Below, in pieces: positions 2-4,692 of a stretch of DNA of 64,000 nt. A model generated the notes under the pieces. That model saw only the letters and a list, made by a program, of their open reading frames with translations. It searched no databases and had not been told where the DNA came from. Within the stretch, counting starts at the first letter, position 1; each line of letters begins with the position of its first letter. The position numbers and the translations under genes are program-made. Origin of the DNA: Alkalispirochaeta americana (GTDB lineage: Bacteria; Spirochaetota; Spirochaetia; DSM-27196; Alkalispirochaetaceae); NCBI RefSeq assembly GCF_900156105.1, contig NZ_FTMS01000014.1, forward strand, positions 1 to 64,000. Reading direction: 5' to 3'.

Positions 2-82
2 GTGGCCAGTCTTGTAGAATCCGGCGAGATTCCGGCACGAGGTGAGTTCGTTCTCCTTGTATGGACTGATAAAAGCCGTTAA
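2..82 (+). CDS. C-terminal tail of a probable RsmI (16S rRNA 2'-O-methyltransferase), cut by the window edge
   Basis: One frame is open from the left edge to TAA at 80-82 and ends in GEIPARGEFVLLVWTDKSR. The GEFVLLV segment resembles the conserved C-terminal end of RsmI, the enzyme that 2'-O-methylates C1402 of 16S rRNA. Only 26 residues are visible, so identity rests on this short tail. Its stop codon overlaps the -35-like TAAA of the flgM promoter, so the flgM promoter sits at the very end of this gene. It could instead be a chance open frame. Confidence 0.4.
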   Translation: MASLVESGEIPARGEFVLLVWTDKSR

Positions 83-106
83 AATTATGGGGTGAGGGGC
101 CGATAA
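80..106 (+). promoter_or_regulatory. Sigma-28 (FliA-type) flagellar promoter of flgM
   Basis: TAAA at 80-83 is followed by exactly 15 nt and then GCCGATAA at 99-106, a perfect match to the enterobacterial sigma-28 consensus (TAAA-N15-GCCGATAA). It lies 13 nt upstream of the flgM ATG. FlgM is the antagonist of sigma-28, so this is the classic autoregulatory loop in which sigma-28 drives its own anti-sigma factor. Confidence 0.88.
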
Positions 107-119
107 TGTTGATGAAAGG

Positions 120-419
120 ATGGATCAATCGATGACGATTGAACGGCTTGGGCCGATTGACCCGATTCATAGATACCACAAAGCTGAAAAAGCAGCCAAG
201 TCGGCAGGGGCAAAAACTGGTGACGCGATCTCTCTCTCCGATGAGGCGCGGGCCCGGTCAGAGGTCCTGCAGGCCCTGGAAGAGGTGCGGGGGCTTCCCG
301 ATATCCGTCAGGACCGTGTCGAGGAAGTGCGCCGAAAGCTTGAAGATCCATCCTACATCTCGGACAAGGTAGTCGAGGCCGTGGCGGAGGAGATCCTCTC
401 CGTCTTCGATCTGGGCTAG
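120..419 (+). CDS. flgM: Flagellar anti-sigma-28 factor FlgM
   Basis: A 99-residue protein with the FlgM layout: a disordered, Lys/Ala-rich N terminus (to about residue 40) and a C-terminal helical sigma-binding part ending in SYISDKVVEAVAEEILSVF. FlgM holds sigma-28 inactive until the hook-basal body is complete and FlgM is exported. A sigma-28 promoter precedes it and a rho-independent terminator follows, so it appears monocistronic. The start may instead be ATG at 132 (MTIERLGP), which would place the GGATGG at 118-123 at a better Shine-Dalgarno distance; both starts share the promoter. Confidence 0.85.
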   Translation: MDQSMTIERLGPIDPIHRYHKAEKAAKSAGAKTGDAISLSDEARARSEVLQALEEVRGLPDIRQDRVEEVRRKLEDPSYISDKVVEAVAEEILSVFDLG

Positions 420-445: not shown

Positions 446-480
446 AGCAGCACCTCCACCGGGGGCGCTGCTTTTTTTTT
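446..480 (+). terminator. Rho-independent terminator after flgM
   Basis: Stem AGCAGC (446-451) pairs with GCTGCT (467-472), extended inward by CCTCC/GGGGG pairs, followed by nine T residues. It ends the flgM transcript before the dehydrogenase-like gene. Confidence 0.88.
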
Positions 481-611: not shown

Positions 612-1757
612 ATGCGTAGCATATCTCTCAGATTGCCGTCGACTGTTGTCTTTGGCAAGGATGTATTGACCCAGGTAGGTTCGCTGGCTCGGGAGCGGGG
701 AACCCGGGCACTTGTCGTCACCGAAGGTGTCCTCCACGAGGGAGGGCATATCGAGCGCGTCGCCGAGATACTGAGGCGATCGGGTCTGGACGTAATGGTC
801 TACGACGAACTCATGCCGAGTTCCGCCTCGTCCCGGGTGGATGAAATCGCCTCGCTGGCTCGGGCCAGCAAAACCCAGGTTGTTCTTGGTCTGGGGGGGA
901 TGAGAGTCCTCTCGGTAGCCCGGTGTGTGGCCAACTGCGCCGCTTCAGCCTTGACCGTGCGGGACCTTCTGGAGGGAAAAACCGCCCGGGACTCGGTCGA
1001 TTATATTGAGGTCCCCTCGTCGTTCCGGAACCATCTTCTCATGCGTGACGAGGCCCTTTTGCGCGATTCCGGTTCCGAGCGGGCCCGGATGGTCCGGACC
1101 TGTCCCGGCACCGTGAAGGCTGTGGTGCTGGAAACGGAGTTCTCCCAGACGCTGTCGGCCAAGTACGCCCTGGCGGCGGTGATGGATACCCTCCTGGCGG
1201 CGATCGAGGGGTTCTTCTCCACGCGGTCATCCCTCTATTCCGACACGCTCCTGGAGCGGGCAATTCAGGAGCTCCATGGATCGGCCCTGACAGCGGTAAA
1301 AAATCCTCTCGACAGCCGGTTTCGGGAGCGCGCCGCCGAGGCGGGTCTGATGACCGCCCTGGCTCTGGCCGTGACCGGCCAGGGGGCGGGGGGCGCTCTG
1401 GCCTACGGTATCAATGCCCGGTTCAGTCTTCCCAAATCCTGGGTCGCCAGTATCTTTCTGCCCCACGTTGTCGAGACCCTGAGCACCCAGAATGTCGAGA
1501 AGGCAGCCCGGGTTGCCGCCGCTTTGGGGGAACCCCTGGAGGGAATCTCCCCAGCTGGTGACGCCCCCCGGGCCGCGCGGGGTATCCGCAAGCTGGTGAG
1601 CCATCTTGATCTGCCTGCCCGGCTTCGGGATCTCGATGTGACCCTGGACGAGCTCTCCCATTGTGCAGAACAGGTGGCCGACTTTGATATGCTGGCGCAT
1701 GTTCCCGGGGGAGCGGGGGTTCAGGAGCTGCAACGGCTGGTCTCGGCTGCGTACTAA
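612..1757 (+). CDS. Degenerate iron-containing alcohol dehydrogenase family protein, probably non-catalytic
   Basis: 381 residues with the overall Fe-ADH (group III) fold pattern: N-terminal beta-strand and VFGKDVL start, a dinucleotide-type VVLGLGG region near residue 95, and a C-terminal all-helical domain ending in VPGGAGVQEL. Key residues are missing. The GGGS-D-K cofactor motif reads LGGMRVLSVA. The first metal-ligand motif, DALTHAIE in active relatives, reads DTLLAAIE, with the Asp kept but the His lost. The HALAHPLG/PHG region reads GALAYGI and PKS, losing the other metal-ligand histidines. A metal-dependent dehydrogenase reaction is therefore unlikely; a structural, regulatory or altered role is inferred. 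The gene lies just after flgM and its stop overlaps the ATG of the methyltransferase gene (TAATG). Confidence 0.75.
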   Translation: MRSISLRLPSTVVFGKDVLTQVGSLARERGTRALVVTEGVLHEGGHIERVAEILRRSGLDVMVYDELMPSSASSRVDEIASLARASKTQVVLGLGGMRVLSVARCVANCAASALTVRDLLEGKTARDSVDYIEVPSSFRNHLLMRDEALLRDSGSERARMVRTCPGTVKAVVLETEFSQTLSAKYALAAVMDTLLAAIEGFFSTRSSLYSDTLLERAIQELHGSALTAVKNPLDSRFRERAAEAGLMTALALAVTGQGAGGALAYGINARFSLPKSWVASIFLPHVVETLSTQNVEKAARVAAALGEPLEGISPAGDAPRAARGIRKLVSHLDLPARLRDLDVTLDELSHCAEQVADFDMLAHVPGGAGVQELQRLVSAAY

Positions 1758-2614
1758 TGAGGCGGGCTCCTTCCCGGATACCCTCGCTGGGGTCCGGCGG
1801 GTTGCGTCGGGTTCTGTTGCCCCTCTTTACTCTGGACCAGGAGGGTCGGCCCCGGGTGCTGTGCGATCCCCTCTATCTGGCCCGGGTCCTGGAGGCGGTC
1901 CGGGACGATTCCCGGCGGACGACCCCTCTGCGGGAGGCTGCCGGGAAAGCCGTGGCTTTTCTTGCTCAAGGAGGTGATCCCCGGGACCGTTCCTTTCTGA
2001 TCCTGCGGGATGTTCTTGATCGGGAAGCAGGGGTCATGGTGGAGGAGGAGCCGCTCCGGGAGGGGCTCTCCCGGGAATCCCTGGCTGCTCCCGATGGCCG
2101 GGAGTATCGTCCGATACCCCTAGTGCTCTATCTGGAACACCTGCGGTCCCCCTTCAACACCGGAAACATTCTTCGCAGCGCCGCCGCCTTCGGGGTCGCC
2201 GGGGTTGTTCTGGGAGCCGGTTGTCCCTCGCTGGATCATCCCAGGCTTCTTCGGGCAGCCATGGGAAGCGAGGGGATGATTCCCTGTCTGGTCGGAACCG
2301 AGGAGGATGCCCGGACTCTTCTGGAAGAGCGGTTTCCTGCTCCGGGGCAGGAGCGTCCACGGCTGTACGCGCTCGAAACGGGAGGAACACCCCTCTCCCG
2401 GGCCGGGGTTACCTTCCCGGCCGTGGTGATCCTGGGCCATGAGGAGAAGGGGGTGTCAGCACCTCTTCTGGAGAGGACTCGCCTCTCGGGGGGGATTGTG
2501 ACGATACCCCATCAGGGACCAAAGGGGTCCCTGAACGTGGGTGTTGCGGCGGGAATACTCCTGAATCACCTGAACCACCTGGCCGGGCCGACAGACTCTG
2601 CCGGGCCGGAATAG
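1757..2614 (+). CDS. TrmH/SpoU-family RNA 2'-O-ribose methyltransferase
   Basis: 285 residues with a C-terminal SPOUT domain from about residue 120. The three knot motifs are visible: NTGNILRSAAAFGV (motif 1), LGHEEKGV (motif 2) and IPHQGPKGSLNVGVAAGILL (motif 3). The family methylates ribose 2'-OH groups in tRNA or rRNA with S-adenosylmethionine. The first 115 residues are a family-variable N terminus, so the substrate cannot be named. Translationally coupled to the preceding gene and convergent with osmC, with only one base between the two stop codons' outer ends. Confidence 0.85.
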   Translation: MRRAPSRIPSLGSGGLRRVLLPLFTLDQEGRPRVLCDPLYLARVLEAVRDDSRRTTPLREAAGKAVAFLAQGGDPRDRSFLILRDVLDREAGVMVEEEPLREGLSRESLAAPDGREYRPIPLVLYLEHLRSPFNTGNILRSAAAFGVAGVVLGAGCPSLDHPRLLRAAMGSEGMIPCLVGTEEDARTLLEERFPAPGQERPRLYALETGGTPLSRAGVTFPAVVILGHEEKGVSAPLLERTRLSGGIVTIPHQGPKGSLNVGVAAGILLNHLNHLAGPTDSAGPE

Positions 2615-3135: not shown

Positions 3136-4632
3136 TCAGGAAGAGCTATCGCGGCGATGGTCCAGGTGGGCGTATTCGGTATCGTACTGCTCCTGGAGGC
3201 GCTGGTGGATGAGGCGGAGCCGTTCGGGAGATTCCACCCCCAAAAGACGCAACACGCGCCCGTCCAGGAGCTCGTATTCGTCGGCATCCATATTGGCCAG
3301 GGTATTTGCCAGGAAAACCGTGGCCACCACATCCCGGTATCGGGGAGGGGCTTTCAGCGGAGCGTGGTGGTGCCGGATCGTCTCAATCAGCACGTCGGGA
3401 AAGTTCCACCGCTGGGCCAGCTGGGCCCCCACCTCGGCATGGGCTATCCCCTCGCTCATCTCCTCGAAGACCGACGAGGGGATTCCCTTCTTGCGGGAGA
3501 AATCGTTGATCTTCTCAACCGTATCGGGGTGAATATTCGAGAAGACGATCTTGCCCATGTCGTGGAGAATCGCTCCCACGTAGACATCGTCCAGGAGGTC
3601 CTTTCGTTTACTCACGTGGCGGGTTATTCCGTAGGCGTAGAAGGCCACGCGCTGGCTGTGCTCCCAGAGGGCACGGGAGACAGCGTTCTCCGAGCCGTCG
3701 CCCAGCACCCGCTGTGTTCCGTAACTGAACAGCATCTGCTTGAGCCCCCGGAGCCCCACCACCTTTACCGCCTCTACGACGTTGTCCATCTTGCGGGGGA
3801 GCATGTAACGGGCACTGTTCACCGTTCTGAGCAGGTCCGCCGTAAGCGCCGGATCCTGGCCCAGCGTTCTTGCGATCTCTGTGACCTCGGCATCGGGATC
3901 GTCCAGGAGTGCCCGCAGTTGCATGATGCTCTCGGGAAACTGGGGAAGCGACTGAATGTGGGCGGTGAGCTCTTGGGACATGTGGGTGAGGTGGTCTCCC
4001 TTGGTCTCGTCCATGGGGATTACCAGGCGCGCCACGGTCTCATTGTTCTCCACGTCGATATCGAAGGCCTCTTCGTCAAGGCCCAGCTTCTTGAGCATCA
4101 GTACCAGAATAACAATCCCCAGGCCAGCCCCCTCGCTATCGTCCAGAACCGCCGTCATCGCCTCCTCGAGGCTCCGGAATGCCCGGGACCGGGCGATGCG
4201 GTCGTAGATCCTGATCTGCTCTTTTCGTGTGATGTGGGTGTTGTTGGCCACGCGGATATGGAGATCCTTGCCCTGGATCTGAAAACTCACCCGCACGTAG
4301 AGACCCGCCGCCTCCTGTTTTTCCAGCCAGTAGCCGATGTTGTCCAGGGTTTCCTGCTTGAAGGTTTGCATGCCCTGGCGGTAATCCTCGTCGCTGGAGA
4401 GGTCCAGCTCCTTCTCTTCAAAGTACACACGCTTGGTGTTGGCCTTTTTTGCGTTTGTCGTAAGTTCCCGCAGGCAATAGGCGAGAGAGTCCTTGAGAAC
4501 ATCCCGGTTGAGCTCCTTCAGGAACGCCCCCAGAATTTCCTCAATCTGCATTTCCGTTTGGTGAGGAAGGGTATAACTCTTGATAGAGATCGGTTTGTGT
4601 GCGCGAGCTGCCGCGCGGACTTTTTGCATCAT
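3136..4632 (-). CDS. GHKL-ATPase/HDOD fusion signalling protein
   Basis: About 498 residues from the preferred start. The N-terminal half (to about residue 215) has GHKL/histidine-kinase ATPase hallmarks: an N-box-like LRELTTNAKKAN and a G-box GAGLGIVILVL, with no visible phospho-acceptor domain. The C-terminal half is an HDOD domain with HDMGK and HHH motifs. HDOD proteins are signalling modules linked to motility and cyclic nucleotides; the HD residues here are kept, so phosphohydrolase activity is possible. Start choice: ATG 4632 has AGAAGG eight nt upstream. ATG 4656 (MSGEKAPS) lies seven nt after the -10 box and would be leaderless. Located between lon and osmC. Confidence 0.8.
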   Translation of the reverse strand: MMQKVRAAARAHKPISIKSYTLPHQTEMQIEEILGAFLKELNRDVLKDSLAYCLRELTTNAKKANTKRVYFEEKELDLSSDEDYRQGMQTFKQETLDNIGYWLEKQEAAGLYVRVSFQIQGKDLHIRVANNTHITRKEQIRIYDRIARSRAFRSLEEAMTAVLDDSEGAGLGIVILVLMLKKLGLDEEAFDIDVENNETVARLVIPMDETKGDHLTHMSQELTAHIQSLPQFPESIMQLRALLDDPDAEVTEIARTLGQDPALTADLLRTVNSARYMLPRKMDNVVEAVKVVGLRGLKQMLFSYGTQRVLGDGSENAVSRALWEHSQRVAFYAYGITRHVSKRKDLLDDVYVGAILHDMGKIVFSNIHPDTVEKINDFSRKKGIPSSVFEEMSEGIAHAEVGAQLAQRWNFPDVLIETIRHHHAPLKAPPRYRDVVATVFLANTLANMDADEYELLDGRVLRLLGVESPERLRLIHQRLQEQYDTEYAHLDHRRDSSS

Positions 4633-4663
4633 CGAAGGTGCCTTCTCGCCACTCATACAGACA

Positions 4664-4692
4664 AGTATAGACGGCACCGGTTCAGGCCGCAA
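4664..4692 (-). promoter_or_regulatory. Sigma-70-type promoter of the GHKL/HDOD gene
   Basis: Read on the minus strand: TTGCGG (4692-4687), 17-nt spacer, TATACT (4669-4664). Predicted transcription start is about 4657, so ATG 4656 would be leaderless and ATG 4632 would have a 25-nt leader. Confidence 0.65.

Follow-up and report, generated by a model that had tools for sequence, protein, structure and literature searches.

A putative pseudoenzyme of the iron-containing alcohol dehydrogenase fold, encoded beside flgM in Spirochaetota, as a candidate component of sigma-28 control

The window, a stretch of 64,000 nucleotides from the start of a contig of Alkalispirochaeta americana (NZ_FTMS01000014.1), carries near its beginning a gene for an anti-sigma-28 factor, followed on the same strand by a gene for a protein related to iron-containing alcohol dehydrogenases (Fe-ADHs), here named pADH, and by a gene for an RNA methyltransferase. 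The features of this region are the following:

80 to 106, plus strand: match to a sigma-28-type promoter, TAAA-N15-GCCGATAA, 5' of flgM, found by pattern.
132 to 419, plus strand: flgM, anti-sigma-28 factor (Pfam FlgM, 9e-10; alignment of 21 homologues).
446 to 480, plus strand: predicted intrinsic terminator 3' of flgM, a terminator-like structure made of the stem-loop AGCAGCACCTCCACCGGGGGCGCTGCT and a T run.
612 to 1757, plus strand: gene for pADH, a putative Fe-ADH-fold pseudoenzyme of 381 amino acids (open reading frame with ATG start, Pfam, alignment, structural model).
1757 to 2614, plus strand: SpoU/TrmH-type RNA 2'-O-methyltransferase (Pfam SpoU_methylase, 4e-23), whose ATG overlaps the pADH stop codon by one base.

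The open reading frame listed for flgM begins at 120, and the alignment with its homologues starts at the ATG at position 132. The product scores 39.1 bits with PF04316, above the gathering score of 25, and 29.9 bits with TIGR03824, below the cut-off of 40.75. Among 103 loci, 10 have a promoter pattern of the TAAA-N15-GCCGATAA type 5' of flgM, where the background rate predicts about 0.6, while none of 93 flgM-pADH gaps holds a sigma-28 promoter of its own. These gaps do contain terminator-like structures (59 of 84, against 1 of 84 control stretches), conserved in position in most loci and variable in sequence. The conserved terminator weakens the case for a simple flgM-pADH operon, and pADH and the SpoU-type gene may form a separate or a read-through transcription unit. 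It weakens the link to flgM without removing it, because flgM and pADH follow each other in the same way in other classes, where no SpoU-type gene was detected in the stretches examined.

The protein pADH matches the Pfam models ADH_Fe_C (3e-25) and Fe-ADH (7e-21), each above its gathering cut-off, and both models (PF00465 and PF25137) are matched by all 46 aligned orthologues. The identity to the Alkalispirochaeta alkalica protein is 95-96%; a single protein scan of genome contigs with pADH gave two close relatives only. A structure predicted with AF2 (AlphaFold) from the 46 orthologues has a pLDDT of 92.9 and a pTM of 0.92. When this model was compared with solved structures using Foldseek, the nearest folds were Fe-dependent methanol dehydrogenases, 1,3-propanediol dehydrogenase, and FucO, with TM scores of 0.92-0.93 at an identity of only 20-22% (0.93 to 8zrl and 3bfj). 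The two-domain fold of the group III Fe-ADHs (FucO/lactaldehyde reductase, methanol dehydrogenase; PF00465/PF25137) is thus predicted to be retained as a whole, in agreement with an earlier reading of this DNA from the sequence only, which had described that fold pattern over the 381 residues. The top NCBIfam match is ErcA, an alcohol-dehydrogenase-like regulatory protein (NF041833). Its score of 99.2 bits, where the curated cut-off is 550, shows that pADH is not a member of that family, which nevertheless offers a precedent, by name, for an Fe-ADH-like regulator.

In contrast to the fold, most of the residues on which group III enzymes rely have been replaced. The metal ligands of FucO (D196, H200, H263, and H277) align with Asp192, Ala196, Gly261, and Lys275 of the window protein. 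The sequence-only reading had the metal-ligand histidines replaced, which is right for all three, whereas the fourth ligand, the aspartate, survives. The catalytic histidine (FucO H267) corresponds to Tyr265 in an alignment with canonical spirochaete Fe-ADHs. Of the GGGSxxDxAK motif, the first two glycines remain in GGMRVLSVAR, the altered cofactor loop that had already been noticed, and the nicotinamide loop PTTSGTGSE, on which that reading was silent, is PSSFRNHLL. The other Fe-ADH detected in the same genome has all motifs intact.

These losses are shared by the whole family. When 46 pADHs from the order, 54 from elsewhere in the class, and 15 from other classes were compared with 30 canonical spirochaete Fe-ADHs, all 115 pADHs kept between none and two of the four metal ligands, while 28 of the 30 canonical enzymes kept all four. 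The serine and aspartate of GGGS and the glycine of PTTSGTGSE are replaced in nearly all pADHs of the class, both motifs being intact in nearly all of the canonical set, and the position of FucO H267 is mostly occupied by Tyr, Leu, Phe, or Trp. Spirochaete homologues with a full ligand set would have betrayed a sequencing error or a decay private to this genome, and both can be set aside, since the losses are common to the orthologues. Because they occur in every aligned orthologue while the genome's own second Fe-ADH is intact, the loss of the ligand set is more than chance. Judged by these residues, pADH is probably metal-less and would have no working alcohol or aldehyde redox chemistry. 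Loss of the metal alone is no proof of lost activity, given that metal-free maleylacetate reductases (MARs) of the Fe-ADH fold exist, but catalysis is unlikely because the catalytic histidine and both cofactor loops are gone as well.

The gene is nonetheless maintained. Comparison with three congeners gave dN/dS values of 0.04, 0.10, and 0.13, showing that selection on pADH is purifying, and these values, together with the uninterrupted frames of the listed orthologues, dismiss a pseudogene under relaxed selection. The term "degenerate" used in the sequence-only reading is therefore misleading, all the more as the family has invariant residues of its own. Four arginines that set it apart from group III enzymes (R32, R139, R326, and R337) are invariant among order-level pADHs and mostly kept beyond the order; elsewhere in the class, R337 is present in 50 of 54 proteins and R139 in 41 of 54. 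By alignment, R139 sits in the old nicotinamide loop. Where GGGS had its serine, residue 98 is often R or K, and where GGGSxxDxAK had its lysine, residue 104 is mostly R or K. Lysine is also frequent at position 275. That arginines line the cleft is deduced from the alignment of sequences, not from coordinates.

In a tree of 111 sequences, a branch with an SH-aLRT support of 100 separates the 30 canonical spirochaete Fe-ADHs from all flgM-linked proteins. The tree is unrooted and was made with a quick method, and its long branches leave the internal relationships unsure; it also points to fast evolution of pADH in several lineages. Two highly shrunken versions of about 318 amino acids are found between flgM and the SpoU-type gene (L123, 1785-2741; L150, 3074-4030). 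They reach 30-31 bits with the order profile and are an extreme of the family, perhaps moving toward loss.

The gene order is conserved too. The gene immediately 5' of pADH is flgM in 111 of 130 stretches examined, which sample many families of Spirochaetia as well as further classes of Spirochaetota, with a median gap of 78 bp. Adjacent genes of the same orientation were counted in 40 order-level stretches, in 56 class-level ones, and in 15 of the 20 FlgM stretches that came from other classes, although many stretches were picked by the position of FlgM, so that these are linkage counts and not unbiased frequencies. One pADH from another class has 33% identity across 377 residues. The conservation of the flgM neighbourhood, which the sequence-only reading had left to be checked, extends across the class and the phylum, and the searches made of the literature found no mention of an Fe-ADH-like gene beside flgM. 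On the 3' side, the usual order in the class is the SpoU-type methylase, with a median gap of 5 bp and many 4-bp overlaps, followed by two genes on the opposite strand, one for an HDOD protein and one for a Lon-like protein. The HDOD gene of the window (3136-4692, minus strand) occupies this position, which is conserved in much of the class. By eye, the N-terminal half of its product resembles a GHKL-type ATPase (LRELTTNAKKA ... GAGLGI), while Pfam detects HDOD/HD only. On the 5' side of flgM, a gene of the RsmI-type tetrapyrrole-methylase family lies directly adjacent in three loci examined, from two classes (L054, 4638-5339; L046, 3977-4657; L201, 668-1351).

The distribution of pADH was surveyed with one profile per component in 297 genomes of the class, among which FlgM was found in 195, FlhA in 236, and FliA above the cut-off in 197. 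Nearly all genomes of the order have one pADH orthologue each, and the gene also occurs in many families of the class. Listed members of four families (f10, f11, f16, and f25) have no FlhA, FliA above the cut-off, FlgM, or pADH, and those of their best matches to the pADH profile that were checked were canonical Fe-ADHs with intact ligands; the SpoU-type gene is retained in all four. One motile family (f27) has FlhA and neither FliA above the cut-off, FlgM, nor any pADH-profile match. Its small genomes fit Borrelia, which we take it to be. Borrelia is described as devoid of sigma-28 (PMC12655853).

FlgM without pADH occurs in four families (f14, f22, f28, and f29) and in parts of four others (f17, f19, f32, and f44), which makes pADH an accessory component. 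For the reverse case, pADH without FlgM, no near-complete genome was found, and the sole clear exception (G132) is a metagenome-assembled genome that is 79% complete. The distribution of pADH is nested within that of FlgM and FliA and does not follow the SpoU-type gene, as the persistence of the latter in the four flagella-less families makes clear. A Fisher test at the family level, with families classified by the author, gave 36/40 against 0/5 (p=1e-4), a value that overstates independence because FlgM was probably lost in only about two independent events.

From all of the above, the explanation that we favor, with a probability of about 0.5, is that pADH is an ancient, conserved pseudoenzyme of the Fe-ADH fold that works in the FlgM/sigma-28 circuit. 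The idea of a conserved pseudoenzyme beside a flagellar regulator, put forward from the sequence, is supported by the ligand loss and by the linkage to flgM across class and phylum. In the mechanism proposed, which like that reading allows for recruitment to binding or sensing, pADH would act as a cytoplasmic binding protein of this circuit instead of as a redox enzyme, and it would contact FlgM, FliA, or the complex of both, or else tune the stability or export of FlgM. The old cofactor cleft may bind an anionic metabolite or a nucleotide as a signal. A more specific version is tentative and rather doubtful. In it, a protein of the Fe-ADH fold would have become, at or close to the base of Spirochaetota, the dedicated regulatory subunit of the FlgM/sigma-28 checkpoint, and a small anionic ligand in the cleft, metabolite or nucleotide, would be coupled through it to the expression of periplasmic-flagellum genes. 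Against the explanation favored here, no co-divergence of FlgM and pADH beyond the background was detected (partial distance correlation r=0.05, p=0.26), and the RNA-methyltransferase genes on both flanks (RsmI-type in the three loci examined, and SpoU-type) could mean that part of the synteny is a frozen arrangement.

Along these lines, pADH might be a metabolic or redox sensor, or a scaffold, that has no link to FlgM, in which case the gene order would be inherited and the shared losses would reflect genome reduction or a switch of lifestyle. The many lineages that keep FlgM without pADH, the fast evolution of pADH in several lineages, and joint losses of FlgM and pADH that may amount to only about two events speak for such a protein. 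However, the near absence of genomes with pADH and no FlgM argues against it, as does the survival of the flgM-pADH linkage across classes. In addition, two complete, Treponema denticola-like genomes of one genus (g40) have the pADH-SpoU pair far from flgM and have kept both (L146/L147 and L159/L158), so that pADH persists even after relocation. This explanation is considered unlikely.

A partnership with the downstream SpoU-type methyltransferase, in which pADH would perhaps provide a subunit for substrate or cofactor and flgM would be a mere neighbour, is quite improbable. The spacing between these two genes is tight, compared with the terminator that usually stands between flgM and pADH, and the RsmI-type gene places a second methylase next to flgM in the three loci described above. 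The distribution, on the other hand, weakens a function tied to the SpoU-type gene, which is kept without pADH in flagella-less lineages and was not detected in the 15 flgM-pADH stretches from outside the class. In three loci where pADH is gone, flgM and spoU are simply adjacent (L117, L137, and L142), and the residual correlation of distances between pADH and the SpoU-type protein is absent (r=-0.02).

Equally improbable, finally, is a metal-independent dehydrogenase or reductase similar to the MARs (cd08177; GraC and PcpE). These NAD(P)H reductases share the Fe-ADH fold with pADH and are active without a metal (PMC5125639), PcpE requiring His172 and Lys238 (PMC5741723). Two MAR structures (3w5s and 3hl0) appear among the Foldseek matches, and most pADHs keep a glutamate or aspartate at position 38, which aligns with the aspartate characteristic of members that prefer NAD. 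Nevertheless, the MAR structures rank below the metal-dependent alcohol dehydrogenases, and the residue equivalent to FucO H267 has been proposed to be catalytic in both MAR and FucO (PMC5125639). MARs have a histidine at this position (H243 in GraC), whereas the window protein has Tyr265 and nearly all pADHs a tyrosine or another residue, besides the replacement of the two cofactor loops. Moreover, one would not expect the occurrence of a biodegradation enzyme to follow that of FlgM and sigma-28.

Since pADH matches the Fe-ADH families, automatic annotation is expected to name it an iron-containing alcohol dehydrogenase, and yet it lacks what that enzyme requires and follows the anti-sigma-28 factor across the phylum. 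The FlgM of Treponema denticola (TDE0201), a homologue of the gene next to pADH, is described as an unusual anti-sigma-28 factor that stabilizes FliA, and deletion of its gene is reported to lower flagellin expression (reviewed in PMC12655853). A missing partner would be one explanation for this behavior of a spirochaete FlgM, reportedly unlike that of FlgM elsewhere. As Treponema-like genomes have both flgM and pADH, the question could be directly tested in a laboratory spirochaete. The position of pADH beside flgM in most of the flagellated spirochaetes examined suggests that it is an uncharacterized part of the control of motility in these bacteria.
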